DNA of 64,000 nt from Isoperla grammatica (lineage: Eukaryota > Arthropoda > Insecta > Plecoptera > Perlodidae). A program made the translations under genes and the position numbers. Below, piece by piece: positions 1,476-57,500 of this stretch. The DNA is taken from positions 57,644,311 to 57,708,310 of the forward strand of contig OX246740.1 in NCBI GenBank assembly GCA_945910005.1, written 5' to 3'. Position 1 is the stretch's first letter. Every line of letters begins with the position of its first letter. A model generated the notes under the pieces. It made no database searches. It was not told where the DNA came from and was given only the letters and a program-made list of their open reading frames with translations.

Positions 1476-2044
1476 CTTAATTCTCCGATGCTGAGTGAGC
1501 TATTACTATTAGTTTCAACTATTGCCGTAGTGGTGCGCAACGAGTCGACGGCATCCTGGCCAATCAGCACTTCGGTCCGTCCGTTGACCAATGGCGCGCG
1601 CACTTCCGTCACACTACCACTCTGATTGGCTATCCCTAGACACTCTTGATTTGGCAACGTCGCACACGTAACAGCCTGTGTCTTATTGGTCACAACACTA
1701 TCACCGAGACTTGTCCCCGCACTATCTACAACCTTCTGATTGGTCACCGTACATTCTCCCGGCCTCTTATTGGCCAACACACTCTCACTAGATCTTGAGC
1801 GTTCTTGTAGGCTGAGATCCTGCTTGAGTTCGATCTCTGCAGAGTCTGGCTCTTCTGTGCTGGAGGTGTTGTTGATGGCGTGACCGTTGGAGAGCGCTGA
1901 TGGCTTCACACCCCTGGACGACGGACGCCGGATGTTGTTGCTGGAGGAATAGTCCGGAGGGATGGAGGTCACGTAGATGGGGCTGCTCTCAATGAAGCCG
2001 TTCAGTTCTTTCTGGTGCTCGGTGGCTGGAATCTGCTGATTTAA
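1476..2044 (-). CDS. Internal coding exon of an unrecognised protein (Ser/Thr/Asn-rich, PPDY motif)
   Basis: Seen: a minus-strand frame of 189 codons plus two bases, bounded by a strong acceptor (T-rich tract ending TTACAG just above 2044) and a donor of form AAG|GTCAGT (GT at 1475-1474). Reading starts in phase 0 with LNQQIPATEHQKELNGF. About 20 residues in is SSPIYVTSIPPDYSSSN, which contains PPDY, a match to the PPxY motif known to bind WW domains. The rest is rich in Ser, Thr, Asn and Gln with few hydrophobic blocks, so probably disordered, and carries a degenerate repeat of the form V-x-N-[KQ]. Phase 0 at its start matches the phase-0 end of the exon at 22625-22761, so the two may be consecutive exons. 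I do not recognise the family and assign no function. A chance open frame is possible, but the splice sites and the abrupt loss of coding character at both edges argue against it. Confidence 0.68.
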
Positions 2045-11430: not shown

Positions 11431-11434
11431 AAGT

Positions 11435-11592
11435 CAGAGCCTACCTCATTAGCTGGTGATGGTGCAACAAGCGTTGGCCAAGGCCCAGGGTTCGCATCCC
11501 GGCCGGTGCAGCTCAGAGCCTACCTCATTAGCTGGTGATGGTGCAACAAGCGTTGGCCAAGGCCCAGGGTTCGCATCCCGGCCAGTGCAGCT
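11435..11592 (+). mobile_element. Tandemly duplicated tRNA-like SINE head, 2 x 79 bp
   Basis: Two adjacent 79-bp copies (11435-11513 and 11514-11592) differ at a single base. Each has an A-box-like TTAGCTGGTGATGG and a B-box-like GGTTCGCATCCCGG at the spacing of an internal RNA polymerase III promoter. The cloverleaf is poor, so a functional tRNA is unlikely. A tRNA-derived SINE with a doubled head is the best reading. Confidence 0.65.
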
Positions 11593-22136: not shown

Positions 22137-22535
22137 TTGATATTTCGAGACGTGTGTGTGCTCTCGTCCTCAGTTGCAATCGAACTGACGATGAAAGCAG
22201 ACACTACACATGAAATAGAAATTTCGAGAGTCGTTTTTTTATTCCTTGTCAGTCGCAACCGAGCAACCAGACATGACTCACGAAATTATCTGTCACTATT
22301 TCAGTATCTGTTTCTATCCTCGTCGTCAGTAGCAATCGTATCGACCACACAACGAGGATATTCTCGAAGATATTTCGGGAGTCGTGTTATTTGCTCGTCG
22401 TCAGCCGGAATTGATCTGACGACGACATATACATGGATTCCCGAAATTAAAAAAGATATTTCGGGAGTCGTGTTATGTGCTCGTCATCAGCCGGAATCGA
22501 CCTGACGACGCGCACAAAACCCGTCTCCCGAAACA
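22137..22535. repeat. Minisatellite with dyad-symmetric units (~80-86 bp)
   Basis: TTTCG[AG]GAGTCGTG-type starts recur near 22141, 22220, 22371 and 22457 (the last interval is 86 bp), with a diverged unit near 22297. Each clear unit contains CTCGTCGTCAG, a short centre and CTGACGACG, so one unit folds back on itself and ends with the complement of its start (CCCGAAAT). It ends about 90 bp from the coding exon at 22625. Confidence 0.7.
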
Positions 22536-22624
22536 ACGCGGCGATGTATGATTGACCAATGACAGCCGGCCGTGCAAAGCGTTAGTGTAGACAGCTGTCA
22601 TGGCGGGGGTCTTACAGCGCTAAC

Positions 22625-22761
22625 CTGCTGGGACAACTTGGTCATGTCGACGGGCTTGATGCGTTTGAGTGCGGAGAGGCGTTCAAGTCTCTCTCTCGCC
22701 TGCTGCTCCACAGCAATGACGAAGGCGTCCTGGACATTGCTGTTCTGGGCCAGGTCCAACG
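22625..22761 (-). CDS. Internal coding exon of the same unrecognised protein (helical, charged)
   Basis: Seen: a 137-nt minus-strand exon. The acceptor is a T/G-rich tract ending GTGTTGCAG (AG at 22763-22762) and the donor is CAGCAG|GTTAGC (GT at 22624-22623). After two bases completing a split codon it encodes 45 codons: LDLAQNSNVQDAFVIAVEQQ, then an Arg/Glu/Leu-rich segment (ARERLERLSALKR), then IKPVDMTKLSQQ. This is likely a charged amphipathic helix, possibly coiled coil. It ends on a codon boundary, matching the phase-0 start of the exon at 1476-2044. Its first 53 nt and the preceding ~70 nt of intron are the unit of the tandem array that follows at higher coordinates. I do not recognise the family. 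Multi-exon structure means the other exons lie outside the window. Confidence 0.78.
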
Positions 22762-25700
22762 CTGCAACACAGACAAACACTCATCAGACATGTGCAACCT
22801 ACACCAACATGGTCAGAGTTACTCTACTCTACACAGCGATGACGAAGGCGTCCTGGACATTGCTGTTCTGGGCCAGGTCCAACGCTGCAACACAGACAAA
22901 CACTCATCAGACATGTGCAACCTACACCAACATGGTCAGAGTTACTCTACTCTACACAGCGATGACGAAGGCGTCCTGGACATTGCTGTTCTGGGCCAGG
23001 TCCAACGCTGCAACACAGACAAACACTCATCAGACATGTGCAACCTACACCAACATGGTCAGAGTTACTCTACTCTACACAGCGATGACGAAGGCGTCCT
23101 GGACATTGCTGTTCTGAGCCAGGTCCAACGCTGCAACACAGACAAACACTCATCAGACATGTGCAACTTACACCAACATGGTCAGAGTTACTCTACTCTA
23201 CACAGCGATGACGAAGGCGTCCTGGACATTGCTGTTCTGGGCCAGGTCCAACGCTGCAACACAGACAAACACTCATCAGACATGTGCAACTTACACCAAC
23301 ATGGTCAGAGTTACTCTACTCTACACAGCGATGACGAAGGCGTCCTGGACATTGCTGTTCTGGGCCAGGTCCAACGCTGCAACACACAGACAAACACTCA
23401 TCAGACATGTGCAACCTACACCAACATGGTCAGAGTTACTCTACTCTACACAGCGATGACGAAGGCGTCCTGGACATTGCTGTTCTGGGCCAGGTCCAAC
23501 GCTGCAACACACAGACAAACACTCATCAGACGTGTGCAACTTACACCAACATGGTCAGAGTTACTCTACTCTACACAGCGATGACGAAGGCGTCCTGGAC
23601 ATTGCTGTTCTGGGCCAGGTCCAACGCTGCAACACAGACAAACACTCATCAGACATGTCCAGCTTACACCAACATGGTCAGAGTTACTCTACTCTACACA
23701 GCAATGACGAAGGCGTCCTGGACATTGCTGTTCTGGGCCAGGTCCAACGCTGCAACACAGACAAACACTCATCAGACATGTGCAACTTACACCAACATGG
23801 TCAGAGTTACTCTACTCTACACAGCGATGACGAAGGCGTCCTGGACATTGCTGTTCTGGGCCAGGTCCAACGCTGCAACACAGACAAACACTCATCAGAC
23901 ATGTGCAACTTACACCAACATGGTCAGAGTTACTCTACTCTACACAGCAATGACGAAGGCGTCCTGGACATTGCTGTTCTCGGCCAGGTCCAACGCTGCA
24001 ACACAGACAAACACTCATCAGACATGTGCAACTTACACCAACATGGTCAGAGTTACTCTACTCTACACAGCGATGACGAAGGCGTCCTGGACATTGCTGT
24101 TCTGGGCCAGGTCCAACGCTGCAACACAGACAAACACTCATCAGACATGTGCAACTTACACCAACATGGTCAGAGTTACTCTACTCTACACAGCGATGAC
24201 GAAGGCGTCCTGGACATTGCTGTTCTGGGCCAGGTCCAACGCTGCAACAACAGACAAACACTCATCAGACATGTGCAACTTACACCAACATGGTCAGAGT
24301 TACTCTACTCTACACAGCGATGACGAAGGCGTCCTGGACATTGCTGTTCTGGGCCAGGTCCAACGCTGCAACACAGACAAACACTCATCAGACATGTGCA
24401 ACTTACACCAACATGGTCAGAGTTACTCTACTCTACACAGCGATGACGAAGGCGTCCTGGACATTGCTGTTCTGGGCCAGGTCCAACGCTGCAACACAGA
24501 CAAACACTCATCAGACATGTGCAACTTACACCAACATGGTCAGAGTTACTCTACTCTACACAGCGATGACGAAGGCGTCCTGGACATTGCTGTTCTGGGC
24601 CAGGTCCAACGCTGCAACACACAGACAAACACTCATCAGACATGTGCAACTTACACCAACATGGTCAGAGTTACTCTACTCTACACAGCGATGACGAAGG
24701 CGTCCTGGACATTGCTGTTCTGGGCCAGGTCCAACGCTGCAACACAGACAAACACTCATCAGACATGTGCAGCTTACACCAACATGGTCAGAGTTACTCT
24801 ACTCTACACAGCAATGACGAAGGCGTCCTGGACATTGCTGTTCTGGGCCTGGTCCAACGCTGCAACACAGACAAACACTCACCAGACATGTGCAGCTTAC
24901 ACCAACATGGTCAGAGTTACTCTACTCTACACAGCAATGACGAAGGCGTCCTGGACATTGCTGTTCTGGGCCAGGTCCAACGCTGCAACACAGACAAACA
25001 CTCATCAGACATGTGCAACTTACACCAACATGGTCAGAGTTACTCTACTCTACACAGCGATGACGAAGGCGTCCTGGACATTGCTGTTCTGGGCCAGGTC
25101 CAACGCTGCAACACAGACAAACACTCATCAGACATGTGCAGCTTACACCAACATGGTCAGAGTTACTCTACTCTACACAGCGATGACGAAGGCGTCCTGG
25201 ACATTGCTGTTCTGGGCCAGGTCCAACGCTGCAACACACAGACAAACACTCATCAGACATGTGCAACTTACACCAACATGGTCAGAGTTACTCTACTCTA
25301 CACAGCGATGACGAAGGCGTCCTGGACATTGCTGTTCTGGGCCAGGTCCAACGCTGCAACACAGACAAACACTCATCAGACATGTGCAACCTACACCAAC
25401 ATGGTCAGAGTTACTCTACTCTACACAGCGATGACGAAGGCGTCCTGGACATTGCTGTTCTGTGCCAGGTCCAACGCTGCAACACAGACAAACACTCATC
25501 AGACATGTGCAACTTACACCAACATGGTCAGAGTTACTCTACTCTACACAGCGATGACGAAGGCGTCCTGGACATTGCTGTTCTGGGCCAGGTCCAACGC
25601 TGCAACACAGACAAACACTCATCAGACATGTGCAACTTACACCAACATGGTCAGAGTTACTCTACTCTACACAGCGATGACGAAGGCGTCCTGGACATTG

Positions 25701-28700
25701 CTGTTCTGGGCCAGGTCCAACGCTGCAACACAGACAAACACTCATCAGACATGTGCAACCTACACCAACATGGTCAGAGTTACTCTACTCTACACAGCGA
25801 TGACGAAGGCGTCCTGGACATTGCTGTTCTGGGCCAGGTCCAACGCTGCAACACACAGACAAACACTCATCAGACATGTGCAACTTACACCAACATGGTC
25901 AGAGTTACTCTACTCTACACAGCGATGACGAAGGCGTCCTGGACATTGCTGTTCTGGGCCAGGTCCAACGCTGCAACACAGACAAACACTCATCAGACAT
26001 GTGCAACTTACACCAACATGGTCAGAGTTACTCTACTCTACACAGCGATGACGAAGGCGTCCTGGACATTGCTGTTCTGGGCCAGGTCCAACGCTGCAAC
26101 ACAGACAAACACTCATCAGACATGTGCAACTTACACCAACATGGTCAGAGTTACTCTACTCTACACAGCGATGACGAAGGCGTCCTGGACATTGCTGTTC
26201 TGGGCCAGGTCCAACGCTGCAACACACAGACAAACACTCATCAGACATGTGCAACCTACACCAACATGGTCAGAGTTACTCTACTCTACACAGCGATGAC
26301 GAAGGCGTCCTGGACATTGCTGTTCTGGGCCAGGTCCAACGCTGCAACACAGACAAACACTCATCAGACATGTGCAGCTTACACCAACATGGTCAGAGTT
26401 ACTCTACTCTACACAGCGATGACGAAGGCGTCCTGGACATTGCTGTTCTGGGCCAGGTCCAACGCTGCAACACAGACAAACACTCATCAGACATGTGCAA
26501 CCTACACCAACATGGTCAGAGTTACTCTACTCTACACAGCGATGACGAAGGCGTCCTGGACATTGCTGTTCTGGGCCAGGTCCAACGCTGCAACACAGAC
26601 AAACACTCATCAGACATGTGCAACTTACACCAACATGGTCAGAGTTACTCTACTCTACACAGCGATGACGAAGGCGTCCTGGACATTGCTGTTCTGTGCC
26701 AGGTCCAACGCTGCAACACAGACAAACACTCATCAGACATGTGCAACTTACACCAACATGGTCAGAGTTACTCTACTCTACACAGCGATGACGAAGGCGT
26801 CCTGGACATTGCTGTTCTGGGCCAGGTCCAACGCTGCAACACAGACAAACACTCATCAGACATGTGCAACTTACACCAACATGGTCAGAGTTACTCTACT
26901 CTACACAGCGATGACGAAGGCGTCCTGGACATTGCTGTTCTGGGCCAGGTCCAACGCTGCAACACAGACAAACACTCATCAGACATGTGCAACTTACACC
27001 AACATGGTCAGAGTTACTCTACTCTACACAGCGATGACGAAGGCGTCCTGGACATTGCTGTTCTGTGCCAGGTCCAACGCTGCAACACAGACAAACACTC
27101 ATCAGACATGTGCAACTTACACCAACATGGTCAGAGTTACTCTACTCTACACAGCGATGACGAAGGCGTCCTGGACATTGCTGTTCTGGGCCAGGTCCAA
27201 CGCTGCAACACACAGACAAACACTCATCAGACGTGTACAACTTACACCAACATGGTCAGAGTTACTCTACTCTACACAGCGATGACGAAGGCGTCCTGGA
27301 CATTGCTGTTCTGGGCCAGGTCCAACGCTGCAACACAGACAAACACTCATCAGACATGTGCAACCTACACCAACATGGTCAGAGTTACTCTACTCTACAC
27401 AGCGATGACGAAGGCGTCCTGGACATTGCTGTTCTGGGCCAGGTCCAACGCTGCAACACAGACAAACACTCATCAGACATGTGCAACTTACACCAACATG
27501 GTCAGAGTTACTCTACTCTACACAGCGATGACGAAGGCGTCCTGGACATTGCTGTTCTGGGCCAGGTCCAACGCTGCAACACACAGACAAACACTCATCA
27601 GACATGTGCAACCTACACCAACATGGTCAGAGTTACTCTACTCTACACAGCGATGACGAAGGCGTCCTGGACATTGCTGTTCTGAGCCAGGTCCAACGCT
27701 GCAACACAGACAAACACTCATCAGACATGTGCAACTTACACCAACATGGTCAGAGTTACTCTACTCTACACAGCGATGACGAAGGCGTCCTGGACATTGC
27801 TGTTCTGTGCCAGGTCCAACGCTGCAACACAGACAAACACTCATCAGACATGTGCAACTTACACCAACATGGTCAGAGTTACTCTACTCTACACAGCGAT
27901 GACGAAGGCGTCCTGGACATTGCTGTTCTGGGCCAGGTCCAACGCTGCAACACAGACAAACACTCATCAGACATGTGCAACTACACCAACATGGTCAGAG
28001 TTACTCTACTCTACACAGCAATGACGAAGGCGTCCTGGACATTGCTGTTCTGGGCCAGGTCCAACGCTGCAACACAGACAAACACTCATCAGACATGTGC
28101 AACCTACACCAACATGGTCAGAGTTACTCTACTCTACACAGCGATGACGAAGGCGTCCTGGACATTGCTGTTCTGGGCCAGGTCCAACGCTGCAACACAG
28201 ACAAACACTCATCAGACATGTGCAACTTACACCAACATGGTCAGAGTTACTCTACTCTACACAGCGATGACGAAGGCGTCCTGGACATTGCTGTTCTGGG
28301 CCAGGTCCAACGCTGCAACACAGACAAACACTCATCAGACATGTGCAACTTACACCAACATGGTCAGAGTTACTCTACTCTACACAGCGATGACGAAGGC
28401 GTCCTGGACATTGCTGTTCTGGGCCAGGTCCAACGCTGCAACACAGACAAACACTCATCAGACATGTGCAACTTACACCAACATGGTCAGAGTTACTCTA
28501 CTCTACACAGCGATGACGAAGGCGTCCTGGACATTGCTGTTCTGGGCCAGGTCCAACGCTGCAACACAGACAAACACTCATCAGACATGTGCAACTTACA
28601 CCAACATGGTCAGAGTTACTCTACTCTACACAGCGATGACGAAGGCGTCCTGGACATTGCTGTTCTGGGCCAGGTCCAACGCTGCAACACAGACAAACAC

Positions 28701-31700
28701 TCATCAGACATGTGCAACTTACACCAACATGGTCAGAGTTACTCTACTCTACACAGCGATGACGAAGGCGTCCTGGACATTGCTGTTCTGGGCCAGGTCC
28801 AACGCTGCAACACAGACAAACACTCATCAGACATGTGCAACTTACACCAACATGGTCAGAGTTACTCTACTCTACACAGCAATGACGAAGGCGTCCTGGA
28901 CATTGCTGTTCTGGGCCAGGTCCAACGCTGCAACACAGACAAACACTCATCAGACATGTGCAACTTACACCAACATGGTCAGAGTTACTCTACTCTACAC
29001 AGCAATGACGAAGGCGTCCTGGACATTGCTGTTCTGGGCCAGGTCCAACGCTGCAACACACAGACAAACACTCATCAGACATGTGCAACTTACACCAACA
29101 TGGTCAGAGTTACTCTACTCTACACAGCGATGACGAAGGCGTCCTGGACATTGCTGTTCTGGGCCAGGTCCAACGCTGCAACACAGACAAACACTCATCA
29201 GACATGTTCAACTTACACCAACATGGTCAGAGTTACTCTACTCTACACAGCAATGACGAAGGCGTCCTGGACATTGCTGTTCTGGGCCAGGTCCAACGCT
29301 GCAACACAGACAAACACTCATCAGACATGTGCAACTTACACCAACATGGTCAGAGTTACTCTACTCTACACAGCGATGACGAAGGCGTCCTGGACATTGC
29401 TGTTCTGGGCCAGGTCCAACGCTGCAACACAGACAAACACTCATCAGACATGTGCAACCTACACCAACATGGTCAGAGTTACTCTACTCTACACAGCGAT
29501 GACGAAGGCGTCCTGGACATTGCTGTTCTGGGCCAGGTCCAACGCTGCAACACAGACAAACACTCATCAGACATGTGCAACTTACACCAACATGGTCAGA
29601 GTTACTCTACTCTACACAGCGATGACGAAGGCGTCCTGGACATTGCTGTTCTGGGCCAGGTCCAACGCTGCAACACAGACAAACACTCATCAGACATGTG
29701 CAACCTACACCAACATGGTCAGAGTTACTCTACTCTACACAGCGATGACGAAGGCGTCCTGGACATTGCTGTTCTGGGCCAGGTCCAACGCTGCAACACA
29801 GACAAACACTCATCAGACATGTGCAACTTACACCAACATGGTCAGAGTTACTCTACTCTACACAGCGATGACGAAGGCGTCCTGGACATTGCTGTTCTGG
29901 GCCAGGTCCAACGCTGCAACAACAGACAAACACTCATCAGACATGTGCAACTTACACCAACATGGTCAGAGTTACTCTACTCTACACAGCGATGACGAAG
30001 GCGTCCTGGACATTGCTGTTCTGGGCCAGGTCCAACGCTGCAACACAGACAAACACTCATCAGACATGTGCAGCTTACACCAACATGGTCAGAGTTACTC
30101 TACTCTACACAGCGATGACGAAGGCGTCCTGGACATTGCTGTTCTGGGCCAGGTCCAACGCTGCAACACACAGACAAACACTCATCAGACATGTGCAACT
30201 TACACCAACATGGTCAGAGTTACTCTACTCTACACAGCGATGACGAAGGCGTCCTGGACATTGCTGTTCTGGGCCAGGTCCAACGCTGCAACACAGACAA
30301 ACACTCATCAGACATGTGCAGCTTACACCAACATGGTCAGAGTTACTCTACTCTACACAGCGATGACGAAGGCGTCCTGGACATTGCTGTTCTGGGCCAG
30401 GTCCAACGCTGCAACACAGACAAACACTCATCAGACATGTGCAACCTACACCAACATGGTCAGAGTTACTCTACTCTACACAGCGATGACGAAGGCGTCC
30501 TGGACATTGCTGTTCTGAGCCAGGTCCAACGCTGCAACACAGACAAACACTCATCAGACATGTGCAACTTACACCAACATGGTCAGAGTTACTCTACTCT
30601 ACACAGCGATGACGAAGGCGTCCTGGACATTGCTGTTCTGGGCCAGGTCCAACGCTGCAACACAGACAAACACTCATCAGACATGTGCAACTTACACCAA
30701 CATGGTCAGAGTTACTCTACTCTACACAGCGATGACGAAGGCGTCCTGGACATTGCTGTTCTGGGCCAGGTCCAACGCTGCAACACACAGACAAACACTC
30801 ATCAGACATGTGCAACCTACACCAACATGGTCAGAGTTACTCTACTCTACACAGCGATGACGAAGGCGTCCTGGACATTGCTGTTCTGGGCCAGGTCCAA
30901 CGCTGCAACACAGACAAACACTCATCAGACATGTGCAACTTACACCAACATGGTCAGAGTTACTCTACTCTACACAGCGATGACGAAGGCGTCCTGGACA
31001 TTGCTGTTCTGGGCCAGGTCCAACGCTGCAACACAGACAAACACTCATCAGACATGTGCAACTTACACCAACATGGTCAGAGTTACTCTACTCTACACAG
31101 CGATGACGAAGGCGTCCTGGACATTGCTGTTCTGGGCCAGGTCCAACGCTGCAACACAGACAAACACTCATCAGACATGTCCAGCTTACACCAACATGGT
31201 CAGAGTTACTCTACTCTACACAGCAATGACGAAGGCGTCCTGGACATTGCTGTTCTGGGCCAGGTCCAACGCTGCAACACAGACAAACACTCATCAGACA
31301 TGTGCAACTTACACCAACATGGTCAGAGTTACTCTACTCTACACAGCGATGACGAAGGCGTCCTGGACATTGCTGTTCTGGGCCAGGTCCAACGCTGCAA
31401 CACACAGACAAACACTCATCAGACGTGTGCAACTTACACCAACATGGTCAGAGTTACTCTACTCTACACAGCGATGACGAAGGCGTCCTGGACATTGCTG
31501 TTCTGGGCCAGGTCCAACGCTGCAACACAGACAAACACTCATCAGACATGTCCAGCTTACACCAACATGGTCAGAGTTACTCTACTCTACACAGCAATGA
31601 CGAAGGCGTCCTGGACATTGCTGTTCTGGGCCAGGTCCAACGCTGCAACACAGACAAACACTCATCAGACATGTGCAACTTACACCAACATGGTCAGAGT

Positions 31701-34700
31701 TACTCTACTCTACACAGCAATGACGAAGGCGTCCTGGACATTGCTGTTCTGGGCCAGGTCCAACGCTGCAACACAGACAAACACTCATCAGACATGTGCA
31801 ACTTACACCAACATGGTCAGAGTTACTCTACTCTACACAGCGATGACGAAGGCGTCCTGGACATTGCTGTTCTGGGCCAGGTCCAACGCTGCAACACAGA
31901 CAAACACTCATCAGACATGTGCAACTTACACCAACATGGTCAGAGTTACTCTACTCTACACAGCGATGACGAAGGCGTCCTGGACATTGCTGTTCTGGGC
32001 CAGGTCCAACGCTGCAACAACAGACAAACACTCATCAGACATGTGCAACTTACACCAACATGGTCAGAGTTACTCTACTCTACACAGCGATGACGAAGGC
32101 GTCCTGGACATTGCTGTTCTGGGCCAGGTCCAACGCTGCAACACAGACAAACACTCATCAGACATGTGCAACTTACACCAACATGGTCAGAGTTACTCTA
32201 CTCTACACAGCGATGACGAAGGCGTCCTGGACATTGCTGTTCTGGGCCAGGTCCAACGCTGCAACACAGACAAACACTCATCAGACATGTGCAACCTACA
32301 CCAACATGGTCAGAGTTACTCTACTCTACACAGCAATGACGAAGGCGTCCTGGACATTGCTGTTCTGGGCCTGGTCCAACGCTGCAACACAGACAAACAC
32401 TCACCAGACATGTGCAGCTTACACCAACATGGTCAGAGTTACTCTACTCTACACAGCAATGACGAAGGCGTCCTGGACATTGCTGTTCTGGGCCAGGTCC
32501 AACGCTGCAACACAGACAAACACTCATCAGACATGTGCAACTTACACCAACATGGTCAGAGTTACTCTACTCTACACAGCGATGACGAAGGCGTCCTGGA
32601 CATTGCTGTTCTGGGCCAGGTCCAACGCTGCAACACAGACAAACACTCATCAGACATGTGCAGCTTACACCAACATGGTCAGAGTTACTCTACTCTACAC
32701 AGCGATGACGAAGGCGTCCTGGACATTGCTGTTCTGTGCCAGGTCCAACGCTGCAACACAGACAAACACTCATCAGACATGTGCAACTTACACCAACATG
32801 GTCAGAGTTACTCTACTCTACACAGCGATGACGAAGGCGTCCTGGACATTGCTGTTCTGGGCCAGGTCCAACGCTGCAACACAGACAAACACTCATCAGA
32901 CATGTGCAACTTACACCAACATGGTCAGAGTTACTCTACTCTACACAGCGATGACGAAGGCGTCCTGGACATTGCTGTTCTGGGCCAGGTCCAACGCTGC
33001 AACACAGACAAACACTCATCAGACATGTGCAACTTACACCAACATGGTCAGAGTTACTCTACTCTACACAGCGATGACGAAGGCGTCCTGGACATTGCTG
33101 TTCTGGGCCAGGTCCAACGCTGCAACACAGACAAACACTCATCAGACATGTGCAACCTACACCAACATGGTCAGAGTTACTCTACTCTACACAGCGATGA
33201 CGAAGGCGTCCTGGACATTGCTGTTCTGGGCCAGGTCCAACGCTGCAACACAGACAAACACTCATCAGACATGTGCAACTTACACCAACATGGTCAGAGT
33301 TACTCTACTCTACACAGCGATGACGAAGGCGTCCTGGACATTGCTGTTCTGGGCCAGGTCCAACGCTGCAACACAGACAAACACTCATCAGACATGTGCA
33401 ACTTACACCAACATGGTCAGAGTTACTCTACTCTACACAGCGATGACGAAGGCGTCCTGGACATTGCTGTTCTGGGCCAGGTCCAACGCTGCAACACACA
33501 GACAAACACTCATCAGACATGTGCAACCTACACCAACATGGTCAGAGTTACTCTACTCTACACAGCGATGACGAAGGCGTCCTGGACATTGCTGTTCTGG
33601 GCCAGGTCCAACGCTGCAACACAGACAAACACTCATCAGACATGTGCAGCTTACACCAACATGGTCAGAGTTACTCTACTCTACACAGCGATGACGAAGG
33701 CGTCCTGGACATTGCTGTTCTGGGCCAGGTCCAACGCTGCAACACAGACAAACACTCATCAGACATGTGCAACCTACACCAACATGGTCAGAGTTACTCT
33801 ACTCTACACAGCGATGACGAAGGCGTCCTGGACATTGCTGTTCTGGGCCAGGTCCAACGCTGCAACACACAGACAAACACTAATCAGACGTGTACAACTT
33901 ACACCAACATGGTCAGAGTTACTCTACTCTACACAGCGATGACGAAGGCGTCCTGGACATTGCTGTTCTGGGCCAGGTCCAACGCTGCAACACAGACAAA
34001 CACTCATCAGACATGTGCAACCTACACCAACATGGTCAGAGTTACTCTACTCTACACAGCGATGACGAAGGCGTCCTGGACATTGCTGTTCTGAGCCAGG
34101 TCCAACGCTGCAACACAGACAAACACTCATCAGACATGTGCAACTTACACCAACATGGTCAGAGTTACTCTACTCTACACAGCGATGACGAAGGCGTCCT
34201 GGACATTGCTGTTCTGGGCCAGGTCCAACGCTGCAACACACAGACAAACACTCATCAGACATGTGCAACCTACACCAACATGGTCAGAGTTACTCTACTC
34301 TACACAGCGATGACGAAGGCGTCCTGGACATTGCTGTTCTGAGCCAGGTCCAACGCTGCAACACAGACAAACACTCATCAGACATGTGCAACTTACACCA
34401 ACATGGTCAGAGTTACTCTACTCTACACAGCGATGACGAAGGCGTCCTGGACATTGCTGTTCTGTGCCAGGTCCAACGCTGCAACACAGACAAACACTCA
34501 TCAGACATGTGCAACTTACACCAACATGGTCAGAGTTACTCTACTCTACACAGCGATGACGAAGGCGTCCTGGACATTGCTGTTCTGGGCCAGGTCCAAC
34601 GCTGCAACACAGACAAACACTCATCAGACATGTGCAACTACACCAACATGGTCAGAGTTACTCTACTCTACACAGCAATGACGAAGGCGTCCTGGACATT

Positions 34701-37700
34701 GCTGTTCTGGGCCAGGTCCAACGCTGCAACACAGACAAACACTCATCAGACATGTGCAACCTACACCAACATGGTCAGAGTTACTCTACTCTACACAGCG
34801 ATGACGAAGGCGTCCTGGACATTGCTGTTCTGTGCCAGGTCCAACGCTGCAACACAGACAAACACTCATCAGACATGTGCAACTTACACCAACATGGTCA
34901 GAGTTACTCTACTCTACACAGCGATGACGAAGGCGTCCTGGACATTGCTGTTCTGGGCCAGGTCCAACGCTGCAACACAGACAAACACTCATCAGACATG
35001 TGCAACTTACACCAACATGGTCAGAGTTACTCTACTCTACACAGCGATGACGAAGGCGTCCTGGACATTGCTGTTCTGGGCCAGGTCCAACGCTGCAACA
35101 CAGACAAACACTCATCAGACATGTGCAACTTACACCAACATGGTCAGAGTTACTCTACTCTACACAGCGATGACGAAGGCGTCCTGGACATTGCTGTTCT
35201 GGGCCAGGTCCAACGCTGCAACACAGACAAACACTCATCAGACATGTGCAACTTACACCAACATGGTCAGAGTTACTCTACTCTACACAGCGATGACGAA
35301 GGCGTCCTGGACATTGCTGTTCTGGGCCAGGTCCAACGCTGCAACACAGACAAACACTCATCAGACATGTGCAACCTACACCAACATGGTCAGAGTTACT
35401 CTACTCTACACAGCAATGACGAAGGCGTCCTGGACATTGCTGTTCTGAGCCAGGTCCAACGCTGCAACACAGACAAACACTCATCAGACATGTGCAACTT
35501 ACACCAACATGGTCAGAGTTACTCTACTCTACACAGCAATGACGAAGGCGTCCTGGACATTGCTGTTCTGGGCCAGGTCCAACGCTGCAACACACAGACA
35601 AACACTCATCAGACATGTGCAACTTACACCAACATGGTCAGAGTTACTCTACTCTACACAGCGATGACGAAGGCGTCCTGGACATTGCTGTTCTGGGCCA
35701 GGTCCAACGCTGCAACACAGACAAACACTCATCAGACATGTTCAACTTACACCAACATGGTCAGAGTTACTCTACTCTACACAGCAATGACGAAGGCGTC
35801 CTGGACATTGCTGTTCTGGGCCAGGTCCAACGCTGCAACACAGACAAACACTCATCAGACATGTGCAACTTACACCAACATGGTCAGAGTTACTCTACTC
35901 TACACAGCGATGACGAAGGCGTCCTGGACATTGCTGTTCTGGGCCAGGTCCAACGCTGCAACACAGACAAACACTCATCAGACATGTGCAACCTACACCA
36001 ACATGGTCAGAGTTACTCTACTCTACACAGCGATGACGAAGGCGTCCTGGACATTGCTGTTCTGGGCCAGGTCCAACGCTGCAACACAGACAAACACTCA
36101 TCAGACATGTGCAACTTACACCAACATGGTCAGAGTTACTCTACTCTACACAGCGATGACGAAGGCGTCCTGGACATTGCTGTTCTGGGCCAGGTCCAAC
36201 GCTGCAACACAGACAAACACTCATCAGACATGTGCAACCTACACCAACATGGTCAGAGTTACTCTACTCTACACAGCGATGACGAAGGCGTCCTGGACAT
36301 TGCTGTTCTGGGCCAGGTCCAACGCTGCAACACAGACAAACACTCATCAGACATGTGCAACCTACACCAACATGGTCAGAGTTACTCTACTCTACACAGC
36401 GATGACGAAGGCGTCCTGGACATTGCTGTTCTGGGCCAGGTCCAACGCTGCAACACAGACAAACACTCATCAGACATGTGCAACCTACACCAACATGGTC
36501 AGAGTTACTCTACTCTACACAGCGATGACGAAGGCGTCCTGGACATTGCTGTTCTGGGCCAGGTCCAACGCTGCAACACAGACAAACACTCATCAGACAT
36601 GTGCAACTTACACCAACATGGTCAGAGTTACTCTACTCTACACAGCGATGACGAAGGCGTCCTGGACATTGCTGTTCTGGGCCAGGTCCAACGCTGCAAC
36701 AACAGACAAACACTCATCAGACATGTGCAACTTACACCAACATGGTCAGAGTTACTCTACTCTACACAGCGATGACGAAGGCGTCCTGGACATTGCTGTT
36801 CTGGGCCAGGTCCAACGCTGCAACAACAGACAAACACTCATCAGACATGTGCAACTTACACCAACATGGTCAGAGTTACTCTACTCTACACAGCAATGAC
36901 GAAGGCGTCCTGGACATTGCTGTTCTGGGCCAGGTCCAACGCTGCAACACAGACAAACACTCATCAGACATGTGCAACTTACACCAACATGGTCAGAGTT
37001 ACTCTACTCTACACAGCGATGACGAAGGCGTCCTGGACATTGCTGTTCTGGGCCAGGTCCAACGCTGCAACACAGACAAACACTCATCAGACATGTGCAA
37101 CTTACACCAACATGGTCAGAGTTACTCTACTCTACACAGCAATGACGAAGGCGTCCTGGACATTGCTGTTCTGGGCCAGGTCCAACGCTGCAACACAGAC
37201 AAACACTCATCAGACATGTGCAACTTACACCAACATGGTCAGAGTTACTCTACTCTACACAGCAATGACGAAGGCGTCCTGGACATTGCTGTTCTGGGCC
37301 AGGTCCAACGCTGCAACACAGACAAACACTCATCAGACATGTGCAGCTTACACCAACATGGTCAGAGTTACTCTACTCTACACAGCGATGACGAAGGCGT
37401 CCTGGACATTGCTGTTCTGGGCCAGGTCCAACGCTGCAACACAGACAAACACTCATCAGACATGTGCAACTTACACCAACATGGTCAGAGTTACTCTACT
37501 CTACACAGCGATGACGAAGGCGTCCTGGACATTGCTGTTCTGGGCCAGGTCCAACGCTGCAACACAGACAAACACTCATCAGACATGTGCAACTTACACC
37601 AACATGGTCAGAGTTACTCTACTCTACACAGCGATGACGAAGGCGTCCTGGACATTGCTGTTCTGGGCCAGGTCCAACGCTGCAACACAGACAAACACTC

Positions 37701-38300
37701 ATCAGACATGTGCAACTTACACCAACATGGTCAGAGTTACTCTACTCTACACAGCAATGACGAAGGCGTCCTGGACATTGCTGTTCTGGGCCAGGTCCAA
37801 CGCTGCAACACACAGACAAACACTCATCAGACATGTGCAACTTACACCAACATGGTCAGAGTTACTCTACTCTACACAGCGATGACGAAGGCGTCCTGGA
37901 CATTGCTGTTCTGGGCCAGGTCCAACGCTGCAACACACAGACAAACACTCATCAGACATGTGCAACTTACACCAACATGGTCAGAGTTACTCTACTCTAC
38001 ACAGCGATGACGAAGGCGTCCTGGACATTGCTGTTCTGGGCCAGGTCCAACGCTGCAACACAGACAAACACTCATCAGACATGTGCAGCTTACACCAACA
38101 TGGTCAGAGTTACTCTACTCTACACAGCGATGACGAAGGCGTCCTGGACATTGCTGTTCTGGGCCAGGTCCAACGCTGCAACACAGACAAACACTCATCA
38201 GACATGTGCAACTTACACCAACATGGTCAGAGTTACTCTACTCTACACAGCGATGACGAAGGCGTCCTGGTCCAACGCTGCAACACACAGGACAAACAAA
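22709..38300. repeat. Tandem array of a 123-bp intron-exon boundary unit, about 126 copies
   Basis: Seen: a near-continuous array of a 123-bp unit with very few substitutions between copies. Some units are 125 bp (extra CA, giving ACACACAG) or 124 bp (AACAACAG), and a few have one-base losses (for example near 27980 and 34637). On the minus strand each unit reads: intron tail with TCTGATGAG and a T/G-rich tract, TTGCAG, then CGTTGGACC...ATCGCTGTG, the first 53 nt of the exon at 22625-22761 with one silent difference (ATT to ATC). In array copies the exon sequence is then cut off by TAGAGTAG. The final copy at ~38250-38300 is deleted internally and diverges. On the plus strand two of three frames lack stops, so overlapping frames of up to 1044 codons appear. 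They are not genes. Because 123 is divisible by three, these frames run until a +1 or +2 variant shifts them. Confidence 0.97.
22762..22790 (-). promoter_or_regulatory. Authentic 3' splice site of the 22625-22761 exon
   Basis: On the minus strand a branch-point-like CTGATGAG, a T/G-rich tract (GTTTGTCTGTG) and TTGCAG precede the exon. It is the only acceptor in the array followed by the full exon and a donor. The length variants of the array all fall inside this tract, just upstream of the AG. Confidence 0.7.
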
Positions 38301-38959
38301 TACATCTGACATAATAATATGCTACTGCGAACTGTGCTCACGGCGCGGTTGGCACACTTTTCTCACCCTGAGCCAGGGCCAAGGGGGGGGGGGGGGGAGG
38401 GGGGTTATCAGTGCTCAAATGATAGACATTATAAATGTATTATTTTACGAAAACCCCTAAACACTACCCCACTGTGGGATGGTGATTGGTTCCCGATGTT
38501 TGAATTTTAACATCTTCAATTTTGATTTCCAGCTGCACTCGCAGTTCAAACTTATTCCAGCACTTCAAGACTTAACCAATGTACATCAATTAAAAAATCG
38601 TACACACACCTTCAAATTTTTCAAAATTTGTTTTATACCTTGACAAAATACAGCACAACTGTACTCCCTACTGTTTGAAGACTACCTCTAAAACAGAATG
38701 TATTACACAGAAATGACATCCATCAGATTCAATTTCTACCTATATTTACTCCAGTTAATGTTGTGAATTCAAAATCCTTTCAGCTACAACTCACATGTTA
38801 TCTAGGCTCGACATGTTTTACGTCAGTACACATGTTTTTTTGTTGGTATTTTCATTTAATTAATCCTACAGAATATGTATAAAAACATTTCCCCACATGA
38901 TATAGTGTCATGTTATTACGTTTCATGTGCGCATATATGTCAACTCTTTTATCACCCTG

Positions 38960-40919: not shown

Positions 40920-41812
40920 TGTCCCGCAACGTATTTGATATACGGTTAGAAGGAATCAAAATTAATGATTACACTCTTGTAAAATCGCTACTATGTACAA
41001 CATAACGTAATTTTCGAATGACAGCCCGTTAAACTTCCGCAATTATCTCAAAATCTGTGGTATGTCACGCAGGTTTGTTCATATATATTTAAAACGGATG
41101 TAATTGAGATTAATTAGAAGGAATGAAATTAAATGAATATACTCAGATTCTCTTACAAATCGCTACTATGTGTGGCATTAAGTAATTTATAATGACAGCC
41201 CGTCAAACTTCCATAATTATCTCAAAATCTGTGGTATGACACGTGGGTTTGTTTATATATGCTTAAATAAGATGTAATTGGGATTACTTAGAAGGGATCA
41301 TATAATTGAATATACTCAGCTTCTCTTACTAATCGATACTTTGTTTTAAATTACGTATTACCGAACGGCAGCCCCTGAAACTTACTTAATTATCTCAAAT
41401 CTGTGGCATGCCACGCAGGTATGTTCATATATGCTTAAAGTAAGTGTATTTGAGATTAATTAGAAGGAATCGTATTCAATGAATATGCTCTTGTGTTGAT
41501 ACAAATCGCTACTATGTGTGACATTACGTCCTAATTTTCGAATGACAGCCCGTCAACTTACGTAATTATCTCAAAATCTGTGGTATGTCACGCAGGTCTG
41601 TTTATATACGCTTAAAGAAGATGTAATTGATATTAACTGGAATGAATCAAATAAAATGAATATACTCAGCTTCTCTTACTAATCGATACTTTGTTTTAAA
41701 TTACGTATTACCGAACGGCAGCCCCTGAAACTTACTTAATTATCTCAAATCTGTGGCATGTCACGCAGGTTATGTTCATATAGGCTTAAAGTAGGTGTAT
41801 TTGAGAGTGAAA
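40920..41812. repeat. Satellite-like tandem repeat, ~174-bp unit, five copies in two subtypes
   Basis: The landmark ATCTGTGG recurs at about 41053, 41228, 41400, 41576 and 41750, a period of 171-178 bp. Each unit also has AATTATCTCAAA, GTCACGCAGGT (or close variant) and TTAGAAGGAATC. Copies 3 and 5 share a long, nearly identical block (TCTTACTAATCGATACTTTG...GAACGGCAGCCCC), while copies 1, 2 and 4 share CGCTACTATG...GACAGCCCGT. Copies 3 and 5 are ~350 bp apart, which is the spacing of a two-unit higher-order repeat. Confidence 0.9.
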
Positions 41813-42634
41813 AACAGTCAGTCAGAACTTGGTCATCATTTGCAGCGAAATGTGAGTTAAATGAGTGAAACTAAACACTACAAACAGATGCACGTGTGGA
41901 TATATGAGGAGATAACTTGATAGTCTGGAGCAAAGGTCTGGAGGCTATCCAAGTGCTTTGACTACGTCCAACGAGACGCCGGCATCAAGTGCTTTGGTCT
42001 TATCAACGTAAGACAAAGACGTTAGACAAAGTGGTCAAGTCGTGCTTGCGATCTGCGTTATATAGAGCTTCTAGTCCAGACGTCGATCCAAGATGTTTCT
42101 TTGGATTCTTTGGATTGGACGCAGAATGAAGGGTTCAAGCGGGTCCAAAGTTTTCTATGCAGTTGTAGTATAAACCAAAATGTAACGTTAGAAAGTATCT
42201 ATGGCTTCAACAAATTAAATGTTTGTAAGATTGCTAAGTCTTAAAATATGCCACAAAAGTTCAAATTTGGTGCACATTCTCAAACTTACGAAAGAAACAT
42301 TTATTTAAAACCTTTAAAAATGTCTGTCACAGCCATGCATAATATCTATGCAAACAGCCTCATAAAACTTCAAAAAGTAATTGACGAATATTGAGACCCA
42401 CAAGCGACAGCGTAACGTCTTGGTATTGAAATGTAAAAAGTGTGTACGATAGTTTATGGAGGTGTAACTTAAGTATTAGTTGTAAATTGTCACACGCTAC
42501 AACATCTACTATATATATGTCGTAGGTCAGATCACATTCACTCCGCAGGAAACGATAAAGTGAAATAAAAGCCGGCATGGAGTCATTTATCTGGGTGTCA
42601 AGTGTTCCCGCCACCAGGGACATAAGAAATGCAT

Positions 42635-42670
42635 GGAGTCGTGACACCCGATACCGGCACGTGGGTTCGA
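42635..42670 (+). mobile_element. SINE-head-like fragment
   Basis: GATACCGGCACGTGGGTTCG resembles the head region of the ATC-tail SINE (GACGTGGGTTCGAATCCC near 57652). It abuts the tandem duplication that starts at 42671. Confidence 0.35.
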
Positions 42671-42842
42671 TTACTGTCATGTGATCTTATCTCTTAATGT
42701 CCGCCCTGTGTCGATATGCCCGCAGCTGACGAGAGATGGCAGCGCACTAGGCAGTGCTTACTGTCATGTGATCTTATCTCTTAATGTCCGCCCTGTGTCG
42801 GATATGCTCGCAGCTGACGAGAGATGGCAGCACTAGGCAGTG
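42671..42842. repeat. Tandem duplication, 2 x ~87 bp
   Basis: The block starting TTACTGTCATGTGATCTTAT is present at 42671-42757 and again at 42758-42842. The copies differ by a few substitutions and small indels, so the duplication is recent. Confidence 0.9.
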
Positions 42843-44014: not shown

Positions 44015-44432
<418 letters not shown>

Positions 44433-50690: not shown

Positions 50691-51535
50691 TCGCCAAACC
50701 CGAGAAGTGTCCGATAAACTAAAGCAGTGAGCCAAGTCGGTGTACACCCACGCTCTCAGGGTGACGATATAAAACTAACGTATATCGGTTCTCTAGCCAC
50801 GACACCACATATTATTTCTATTATAAAAAGTATAAGTTACATACTGTGTGTATACAAAATAGCTCTTCTAACATATACGTAAAATAACACAAAACGTAAA
50901 GGTTACGACTTTTAATAAAATATGTATAAATCAGGAGGAAAATAGTTTAAAAAAACCCTCTTCGGATTGTCTATATAAAAGTTAGCGCCCACTATAGTGG
51001 GGGAGATGATTCAGTTTGCATTGGAGGCCATAGTAATTACATTATGTACGCTATGTACCACGTGCAGTTCAAGCGAGCTGGCCGCAGCTGTGGGTGCAAC
51101 TCGGTTTTCATGACAATATTATTCTCTTGACACAATGTTGAATACTGTACAAATACGAACATTAATAAATGTTATTTTTTGTATGGACAGCTGACGGTAC
51201 AAATTTTAGCTGGATGGGTGGATAGAGTGGAGTGGGCCTTACACTTATTATTACATAGTCAACCCCCCCCCCACCGAACCTTGCACGAAGTCGGCCACTT
51301 CTACTACCACGGAACAAGTAACAGAGGTAATTTATTTAATTCGCAAACCATTTAATTTCAACAAATTCGAACATACATTATTATTGGTTTCAAATATAGC
51401 CCTAGGATTCGGAAACTTGGAAAACAAGCCAGCCAGATTCCAGTGTTTCGAGTCTACACGCACAGATACGAGATATGTGTGTAGAGTGTAGAGTGTGAGC
51501 CAGGCAGAGAGAGAGACAGAGAGAGAACATCGTGC

Positions 51536-51973
51536 ATGTTAGCGGAGAGTCGGGCCGCATTCCTCGAGGAAGGACTGTTACTCTGGGCGGCTACTGGTCT
51601 CCTAGCGGCCGTGGCGAGCCTGACGCCCTGGGCTAGCCAGGGTCAGGAGGTGAGCCAAGCCCTGGCTTACTCTGTTGTGACGGGGCTCTTCGATATCGTA
51701 CCGGGGCCCTGTCTTGAGCTTCTATTGGATATCCTCAATTCGAAGTTTGAACTCGTTTCTTTGTACGCCTCATATTTTGGAAGCGATACTTATATAAGCG
51801 ATGAGTGGGTGATGCACGAAGATGAACGGCACATGCCCCAGCCGGGGTTCGAACACAGAACGCAGAAACAACGCCAGGTCTTCACGCAAGCCGTCAGATA
51901 CTCCAGAATCACATACCAAGCGATCAAGAATCACTCAACCCCTCTCTATGGCAATATGTCACTCATACGGTGA
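51536..51973 (+). other. GC-rich open frame of 145 codons, coding status doubtful
   Basis: The first ~80 codons are GC-rich compared with the surroundings and give a hydrophobic peptide (LLLWAATGLLAAVASL). The frame then runs through AGCCGGGGTTCGAACACAG, a B-box-like SINE sequence read backwards, so at least the second half is repeat-derived. No family recognised. An expressed gene is possible but not supported. Confidence 0.2.
51780..51930 (-). mobile_element. SINE-like sequence overlapping the frame at 51536
   Basis: On the minus strand CTGTGTTCGAACCCCGGCTG is a strong B-box-like motif. The segment is followed by non-tRNA sequence. Confidence 0.4.
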
Positions 51974-54523: not shown

Positions 54524-57500
54524 TACATGACAAATACATTCCTATTTCCTACCAAAGAAAAAGAAAGCCAAGAGAAATTATTCTTTCCTCTGAGGGAATC
54601 TTGTTCGGTCGCCATGAGAAGAATACCAAGTATATTGCCAGGTACATCGTTACCTCGTGCAGCGAGATATAAACTACACCGCCCACGTGATCATTGAATG
54701 TCACCTCGTGTAGCATTACCCCCCTTATAAGGACTGTTGCGCCCTTGACACTGTCTTGAGGTGAGTATATTTCACAACCAGCCCACCTTATGGCGATAGC
54801 ACGCGTCATAGATGTACAAACACGCTGTGCGCTCTTCAACAATACAAAGTAGCTGATGACCGCGAGGAAACACTTGAGTCAAGATGAAGCGGGAAGCGAT
54901 CCGGCAACCTGCCGCATGCGAGTCTCGTGTTATTGTTGCAACAACGTCGTCGATACGTGCATGGGACAAATGAGATTATTAAGGAGAGATTGTGCAGATT
55001 TCGATTCCTACCCTACCCTCCCTGGCAACCCATACGCAAGAATTTGTGTTTGACTCCTCAATCCTTATAGTTCTTACGTATGCACGAGCCCTTTAAAGTT
55101 TTAACGTTCTAAATACGCTTACCACTATCGGTTACATGATGGGGTACGGGGGGGGGGGGGGGGAGGGAAGGTCCCCTCTAAAATACACAATACTCTGTCG
55201 ACACAAAAATAATGAACCTAATATAACCCAATGACTTCGTTTCGAATCTCGCATACGACAAGTGTTTTCCCAATCGCTCTTTATCTTCGATTATATCATT
55301 CATATCTCGCCCCACAAACAGCGCGTCTCGTATCACGTATTCACCGCCAGTAGCGCGCATGTTCTCCGAGCACACGAGTGTTGTATATACTGCGCAGCAG
55401 AGGAGACTATGCGGCCTATCACGGGAACGTGTTGGTTCGAGGCTATGTCACGCACGCACGAAACACACACAACACAGCCACCTATGTCACGCACGCACGG
55501 AACACACACAACACAGCCACCTGTAGCCGTAGGTACGGCCAGTTTGATTTATGCAACTGGGCTAGCCCACCGATTAGTGGGTGATTATACGTAGCCTACT
55601 CCCGCAGGGTTTGCGTCAGTGTTGCGCGTAATAGGCTTCTCCCCGCTGCAGGGAGAACTGCATGGCACAACAGCTTCAGTCGACTAAGGAATTTATTCAA
55701 GGGCTGTCTTACTCGCCGTGTTGTTGATCAAAACTTGGTTAGAATAATACAAACATCTTTAAAAAATGATAAAACATTTATAATTAATATCAAAATCATG
55801 TAAATAACAAGATAAAATAATAAAACACAACTGAAAGATACCCAAAACGCCATATACTGCAAAGTAAGACCTTGCATGTAACTGTTGGAGAAAGTATTTA
55901 CTATATTTACCTAAAACCACCCTTGCTATACTGTCTTCTGGTTACTATTTAATGGTTACTATTATTTATTAATAATAAAATGCAATTGAATGTTTCATTT
56001 AGACCACAGTCTTTGTCGAACTAAGATGGTTACAACTACGATGTTAATAATTTGCGCAATCAACGCCCAATTGAACAGAATAATGTCACGTGACTACCCA
56101 CTTGTCCCGTAAATGAAAACTAGTAATTATCCACCTGTCCCTGTCCCCAGTGACAGTGACAGCCCAGGTCTGTGTCCGACAGCCGTCATTACAATAGCTG
56201 GTATTGATTGTTAGTCTGTCAACGTGATGGTGCATCTTGCTTCACTCGTTGAGCGGCCGAGTGCGGCGATACCATTAGAGCGCACTCTATCATTACTGAG
56301 TGTTGTACTTGTATACAACACGCCAAGTACACTATTGTGTGTGTAGGACCATTACCGGCTGGACATACACTCGCACTGTACTCCAACCAAGGAGTATTGT
56401 TGATGGTTTACGTTTCTATATTGCAATCATCATATGCGTGCTATTTGAGACGATGACGGGAGAAGATGAAGATGAAGGATAATGAATGATAAGTCAATAG
56501 TATAAAACAACTTAAAGTTTCATAACAAGTTATGAGACAGTGAGCAATTCATACAAGCAACGATTTAAAACAAATCAGTATATAAATACCCGTCTCCAGG
56601 TTATCTACAAATCAACAAAATCTTTATCGCACTGATTGTCATAACAGTTAATAATACATTAATGCTAATAATGATATCTTTCCCTTGATGAACGCTGTAG
56701 ATAATTTGAGGAGAAAATGTACCATTTTTAATAAAAGTGCACTCTCAAAAAACTGTTTATAAATCAACTTCTATTGAAAAGACAAATTAAAAGTTATCAT
56801 TGTAAATTTGAAACGTGCACACACAGACATCGACAGCGTTTAAACTGGCACAGGTTTCGTTATACCTCAAGCACAAACAACTCATTAACACACTTGCTGC
56901 GAAGCAATTAGTTATTAGTGTCTTAGGGCTTTCAATTTCACGAGTACCAAGGCAACTCATTCTTGTGCAAAAACCAAATCGACATTCTTGTATAATTTAA
57001 CATGAGCTAGTTTTTAAAGTTATTGTGGATGCCTATAGTTAATTTGCCACGCATGTATTTATTGTATGCACCTATTCATAATACATTAGCTGGCATACAT
57101 CTCACCTTTAGAAATAGGTAGCTAGGAACTATAACGACTAGATTTAAATTAGTTTGATTATTGGCTGAGATTAAATGAGATCGTAATACCAGGGGTTAGG
57201 ATCGTGCAGCACGTTACAGAATAAATAAATGAATAAGAACCAAAAACTTCAGCTCCCAGAACTAGCGTATTTGATATTATTAAAATAATATACATGATAT
57301 ACACAATAAAAACACCTAGGGTAAACATGAACTCCTACTAGTAAATTGCTTCTAAACGCTGACAAAATGGTCTTGCATGCAGAGTTGCACATATCGCCTC
57401 TATAATCAATCTAGTGTCGCCAACCTAGAGGCATACGTACTTAGATAGAGTACGAGGAACTCCCCTGCCTCAAGACACTGTCTAAGTCATTGAGTCTTTC

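Follow-up and report, generated by a model that had tools for sequence, protein, structure and literature searches.

A 123-bp Intron–Exon Boundary Present in 126 Tandem Copies beside a Probable Coding Exon: a Likely Mirage-Type Minisatellite

Introduction

Tandem repeats that span intron–exon boundaries were named "mirages" in amphioxus, where, in the available portions of the reports, they are described as leaving splicing normal (PMC3087553, PMC3902484). In the mirage of the amphioxus gene BflGb6, each unit combines the 3′ end of an intron with the 5′ part of the following exon, acceptor included, and the units show concerted evolution inside the array and divergence at its edge (PMC3087553, as far as its text was accessible). 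At exon boundaries of Adh3, BflGb9, PGBD5 and troponin C, too, there are tandem repeats containing splice sites, some of them on the donor side, with units of 10–72 bp in Adh3, 157 bp in BflGb9, and 60 and 108 bp in PGBD5 (PMC3902484, PMC3087553, excerpts). The boundary repeats of lancelet PGBD5 number 2–7 copies depending on the assembly (PMC3902484, PMC3087553), and the accessible text of PMC3902484 cites the Adh and troponin C mirages as generating no aberrant mRNAs. In human ABCA7, the available sections of one report describe a VNTR in intron 18 as a boundary repeat with a genuine splice site, with about 12–427 units of 25 bp and a length of up to 10,678 bp (PMC5954066).

Here we describe an acceptor-side boundary array in a window of 64,000 nucleotides, the whole stretch of DNA that was analysed. 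We compare its splice signals with those of the probable true exon beside it, reconstruct part of its history and weigh the explanations of its origin and possible effect.

Results

Extent and homogeneity of the array

Tandem Repeats Finder placed at 22709–38270 a tandem array with a period of 123, 126.2 copies and 98% matches (score 30090). An exact-pattern scan of the minus strand found 127 junctions of the form TTGCAGCGTTGG (TTGCAG/CGTTGG; here and below the slash marks the splice junction), from the first at 38283 to the last, which is the true one, at 22767. The spacing between neighbouring junctions was 123 (n=100), 125 (n=18), 124 (n=5), 122 (n=2) or 102 (n=1), and this regularity indicates that the scan missed no copy inside the array. 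The units comprise 25 distinct sequences, the commonest of which accounts for 51 of the 126. The features of the array and its surroundings are as follows.

22709..38283, minus strand: 123-bp tandem array with 126 decoy acceptor junctions and the true one (repeat finding and junction scan)
38286..38312, minus strand: diverged intron end at the far (upstream) edge (local alignment with the unit tail that keeps the register of the junction)
38182..38283, minus strand: first copy, at the upstream end, 102 nt long; its exon part lacks 21 internal nt (junction spacing and unit alignment)
30415..36823, minus strand: units 13–64, one half of an old duplication (unit-order self-alignment)
23014..30043, minus strand: units 68–124, the other half of the old duplication (unit-order self-alignment)
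22762..22831, minus strand: 70-nt intron part before the true exon (sequence)
22762..22767, minus strand: true 3′ splice site, TTGCAG (junction scan)
22625..22761, minus strand: probable true coding exon, 137 nt (open frame, codon score of 29.6 bits, phase that fits 1476–2044)
22619..22624, minus strand: true 5′ splice site CAG/GTTAGC, intronic side GTTAGC (sequence and matrix score)
1476..2044, minus strand: probable next exon, 569 nt (best minus-strand coding segment, acceptor TTACAG, donor AAG/GTCAGT)

The initial annotation had counted about 126 copies of a 123-bp unit, and the repeat finding agrees with it. Its decoy 3′ splice sites are also present, at a count of 126 rather than about 125, whereas the end of the array, which it had set at 38300, is now resolved into a last clean junction at 38283 and a diverged edge that runs to about 38312.

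Anatomy and variation of the unit

Each unit joins the 70-nt end of an intron to 53 nt from the start of the probable coding exon (22625–22761), and an in-frame TAG comes next. The repeat scan, the junction scan and the reading frame thus bear out the earlier description of a unit made of about 70 nt of intron end and 53 nt of exon start, lying beside its own exon. In the commonest unit, TTGCAG is followed by 53 nt that match 22761–22709 except for one base (position 53) and then by TAGAGTAGAGTAACTCTGACCATGTTGGTGTAAGTTGCACATGTCTGATGAGTGTTTGTCTGTG. The TAG directly after the exon part is intact in all 126 units, and the sequence therefore agrees with the proposal that splicing to a decoy would read 18 codons and then stop. 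Allowing for the common variants at positions 20 and 53 of the unit, 122 of the 126 copies retain the whole 53-nt exon head; in 17 units it is identical to that of the true exon, and the exon-side copy is not diverged. The 70 nt before the true exon begin with the TAG that comes after the exon head of the nearest decoy (22829–22831) and contain a donor-like GTAGGT (from 22802), the branch-like CTGATG and TTGCAG.

Among the copies, the exon part varies at positions 16, 20, 21 and 53, and the rest of the unit at positions 91, 92, 94, 97, 101, 107 and 109 and by a TG-type indel near 123; a difference at position 34 arises from misalignment of the deleted first copy and was left out of the variant counts. 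The commonest exon-part variants, at position 20 (A, n=7; T, n=6) and position 53 (T, n=21), are synonymous in the frame of the exon, and the amino-acid-changing ones at positions 16 and 21 are rare (2 and 1 copies of 126). Synonymous changes make up 34 of the 153 that are possible in the exon part. Small as these numbers are, the synonymous character of the common variants fits a coding exon as the source of the array and exchange between array and exon. The near-invariance of acceptor, exon head and TAG could mean selection, and recent homogenisation explains it equally well.

The probable true exon and its gene

The exon at 22625–22761 is entered after the first base of a codon and left at the end of a codon. 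Its translation is ALDLAQNSNVQDAFVIAVEQQARERLERLSALKRIKPVDMTKLSQQ, where the first residue assumes a G from the previous exon. The first 53 nt (22709–22761) are the exonic part of the array, and the frame continues for 84 nt past it. In a rough codon scan, which used a human codon table, three frames scored above the 29.6 bits of this exon: a plus-strand frame through the edge of the array (78.2 bits), the minus strand within 1476–2044 (51.4 bits over 1544–2038) and the plus strand at 51491–51952 (39.7 bits). The last lies within a plus-strand open frame of 162 codons at 51485–51973, the third-best coding score of the scan when the array frames are counted. Because the segment at 1476–2044 starts in phase 0, it could be joined to the exon at 22625–22761; the intron between them would then measure about 20.6 kb (22624 to 2045). 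In the same rough scan no upstream exon stood out on the minus strand of 38300–64000, and the intron upstream of the probable exon would be longer than about 20.6 kb, provided that the scan overlooked no exon there. Introns of these lengths would be long for amphioxus, a slight argument against a lancelet host. Within 1476–2044, a 24-nt sequence that carries a CCAAT-type motif on the minus strand is present in three copies (1681–1788; 71–83% to the reference copy).

Searches with the exon or with the joined pair of 235 residues found no relative in Pfam, NCBIfam or PDB at a meaningful E-value; Pfam gave nothing for the exon alone, and NCBIfam gave nothing at all. The case that 22625–22761 is a real exon, spliced at 22761, is consequently one made from its sequence. 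The PDB matches were not meaningful; two were to designed helical proteins, at E 0.87 and 9.9, and one to an FAD-binding protein, at E 0.42. Weak Pfam matches below the curated cut-offs, from a search with eight pieces and with the joined peptide, were set aside: MvaI_BcnI for 1430–2065 (E 0.016, seen again with the joined peptide), AdoHcyase for 54552–54878 (E 0.016), and McpB_HAMP_1st (E 0.00067) and AIMP2_LysRS_bd (E 0.27) for 42363–42686. By eye, the start of the exon resembles what we take to be the end of an ankyrin repeat. Rfam at its gathering thresholds returned 0 matches, and ARAGORN returned 0 genes.

Splice signals of the decoys and of the true site

The copies had been described as lacking the rest of the exon and its donor. 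The true donor is indeed absent from them; yet each unit has a donor-like site of its own, 29 nt after the exon part. These sites (n=126) read GGT/GTAAGT in 83 copies, GGT/GTAGGT in 27, GGT/GTAAGC in 14 and GGT/GTAGTT in 2. Because this site follows the TAG, each decoy can be read as a complete candidate poison exon of 82 nt, with an acceptor, an in-frame stop and a donor.

We scored the sites with a simple, rough matrix of human frequencies, in which only the ranks are meaningful: the true donor scored 2.99, and the decoy donors scored 2.14 (GTAAGT), 0.58 (GTAAGC) and −0.41 (GTAGGT). The true donor ranks at the 98.3 percentile of the 3248 minus-strand GT dinucleotides outside the array, and the decoy GTAAGT, which outscores every other GT of the unit, at the 97.6 percentile. 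By the same matrix the true acceptor scored 0.67 and the most upstream decoy acceptor 1.94. With a decoy acceptor that outranks the true one and a decoy donor close in rank to the true donor, silence of the decoys is not obvious. Furthermore, 100 of the 126 decoys share with the true acceptor the 20 nt that precede its TTGCAG, so that the true site can be distinguished only by what lies downstream of the AG.

The donor-like site departs from GTAAGT in 43 of the 126 copies, and the three exon-proximal copies all carry the weaker GTAGGT. The hexamer varies at 3 of its 6 positions, compared with 9 of 117 elsewhere in the unit (Fisher p 0.012, tested after looking). Overall, the decoy donors show no sign of being kept by selection. 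We also considered RNA structure as a function of the unit and rejected it; the one unit that was folded gave a z of 1.0, and 168 of 200 shuffles were at least as good.

Array history

Gapped self-alignment of the unit order aligned 30415–36823 with 23014–30043 at a score of 56.8, whereas 200 shuffles averaged 12.7 and never exceeded 19.6. In the 46 aligned units, 38 are identical and 8 differ, and 19 of the identical ones are of types other than the commonest. The array thus holds an old internal duplication of 52–57 units. A fixed-lag analysis of the unit order gave a modest signal, at a lag of 54 with a z of 5.0, below the maximum of 5.3 over 300 shuffles and all lags.

At the far edge, the alignment of 38286–38312 to the tail of the unit has a score of 23, a value reached in 2 of 2000 shuffles of the bases of the 150-nt flank. 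Other parts of the window outside the array score as high as 26, out of register, so it is the adjacency to a junction that makes this match persuasive. A truncated first copy and a diverged far edge are as expected where homogenisation fails at the end of an array. Length variation between individuals is likely by analogy with BflGb6, for which 6 and 3 units are given for two haplotypes in the accessible part of PMC3087553, and the internal duplication fits it.

Other features of the window

Five imperfect palindromes of about 74–85 nt lie in tandem in the next intron at 22138–22536, some 85 nt beyond the true donor. Each of their RNA hairpins beats nearly all shuffles (z −3.3 to −6.4; 0 to 2 of 200 as good). 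The consensus fold has 12 pairs, none of which shows compensatory changes among the five copies; for this reason an old array of inverted repeats may be a better description than a cluster of functional RNAs. Other tandem repeats are a TAAA microsatellite at 44015–44432 (104.5 copies, 99% matches) and an older repeat at 40982–41806 (period 173, 4.7 copies, 77% matches). Two direct copies of 79 bp, 98% alike, lie at 11434–11592 and carry GGTTCGCATCC, which resembles a tRNA-type promoter box; they are perhaps a SINE. Mononucleotide runs of at least 10 (up to 23) are biased across the whole window, with 13 of G and 6 of C versus 5 of A and 1 of T (for example at 946, 43622 and 58350). Outside the array, the GC content is 40% and the CpG observed/expected ratio is 0.94.

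Discussion

The explanation that we favor, with a probability of roughly 70%, is that the array is a minisatellite of the mirage type, with a unit that straddles an intron–exon boundary, is excised with the intron and is tolerated rather than selected. The unit spans the boundary of the predicted exon, the copies bear its splice signals at all 127 TTGCAG/CGTTGG junctions, and the homogenised interior passes into a diverged edge at the far end only. The phase of the two probable exons on the same strand (22625–22761 and 1476–2044) fits this explanation, and the architecture is that of BflGb6 (PMC3087553, available text). Against it stands a copy number far above that of the mirages described in the accessible portions of the cited papers.

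The last 70 nt of the intron, together with 53 nt from the start of its exon, would have been duplicated beside the exon, and the array would then have grown by unequal exchange. This growth would include the copying of a block of about 52–57 units; the block itself is seen in the unit order, and its copying may have been a single event. All copies but the exon-proximal one are intronic and would be removed with the intron. Exon definition is an established concept, and the true site may be chosen in this way, through recognition of the whole 137-nt exon with its donor CAG/GTTAGC, with the decoys mostly ignored; the downstream cues would be exon length, enhancers and the donor. If the true exon is recognized as a whole, the array can be tolerated for that reason. 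Rare use of a decoy would add the 82-nt piece with its in-frame TAG and would slightly lower the output.

A different possibility is that the array acts on splicing, each unit being a weak poison exon, so that the copy number sets the share of mRNA sent to decay and thereby tunes gene dose. We consider this unlikely. It is favored by the acceptor and TAG present in every unit, by the GGT/GTAAGT of 83 of the 126, and by the donor-side array of human ABCA7, which is associated with splicing changes that include retention of a single unit (PMC5954066, in the sections available). Simple arithmetic also shows what is at stake: a capture of 1% per decoy would leave 0.99^126, or about 28%, of correct splicing, which leaves two options, decoys that are nearly silent or an output that depends on array length. 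However, no part of the unit varies more than the donor-like hexamer, its weaker form is found in the three copies closest to the exon, and adjacent decoys are separated by an "intron" of 41 nt, which is probably too short to splice. Published mirages, moreover, are said in the accessible text not to disturb splicing (PMC3087553, PMC3902484). An extended form of this proposal, in which about 126 near-identical poison-exon modules before the true exon form a genetic dial whose copy number changes by unequal exchange, and perhaps in body cells, and sets the share of transcripts that decays, seems to us improbable. Regulation by the decoys is therefore possible but unsupported. Of the initial annotation's splice interpretation, the anatomy of the boundary stands (array, junctions, phase and TAG), and the suggested tuning of splicing or expression has found no support, the comparable amphioxus mirages leaving splicing normal in the parts of these papers at hand (PMC3087553, PMC3902484).

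The array might also be a repeat with no tie to splicing, beside a chance open frame or a dead exon, and the lack of a meaningful Pfam, NCBIfam or PDB relative is in line with this. We give it only a small chance, as the exon stays in frame for 84 nt beyond the array, scores high on codon usage, ends at a plausible donor, joins in phase to the other strong coding segment (1476–2044), and has common variants that are synonymous in its frame. That the copy number is an assembly artefact, the false expansion of a short array, appears very improbable. One mirage was apparently misassembled in a draft genome (PMC3087553, in the text available), but 25 unit types in a structured order and a diverged duplication of a block are unlike the simple repetition of one read. 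The least credible proposal is a repetitive protein with 41-residue repeats (123 = 3 × 41) encoded by the plus strand, the minus-strand reading being accidental. Although parts of the array are covered by open frames as long as 1068 aa, 25 of the 126 units (those of 125, 124 and 122) shift the frame, and on this ground we reject the proposal; the listed open frames break within the array, none spans it, and the unit is already accounted for by the minus-strand boundary.

The sequence that most acceptors share upstream makes the locus a natural experiment in which the choice of the right site can depend only on information downstream of the AG; a first-come rule would choose a decoy up to 15.5 kb upstream. 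Normal splicing at this locus, if true, would lend strong in vivo support to exon definition; a failure of normal splicing, if true, would make the copy number a dial of dose. The array also suggests the size that a mirage can reach, and one way of reaching it, the copying of about half of itself.

Compared with the described systems, the array differs from those amphioxus mirages that lie on the donor side (PMC3902484, PMC3087553, available portions) in being on the acceptor side, and its unit of 123 bp differs in size from those of Adh3, BflGb9 and PGBD5. The ABCA7 VNTR can likewise reach hundreds of copies, but its 25-bp unit is intronic and begins at the donor GT of exon 18, and its length is associated with altered splicing (PMC5954066, in the text at hand). 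We found no acceptor-side boundary array this large in the open-licence literature, as far as its texts were available. BflGb6 is closer, with units of similar length, 150–160 bp, that are 81–100% alike (PMC3087553, accessible part), compared with 123 bp and 98% here; it is backed by RT-PCR. With 126 units, the array has about 20 to 40 times the copy number of BflGb6, which has 6 or 3 units in its two haplotypes (PMC3087553). Judged by the portions of these papers available, the kind of array is thus already known from the mirages, and it is the size that is notable, 126 units as against 3–6 in BflGb6.
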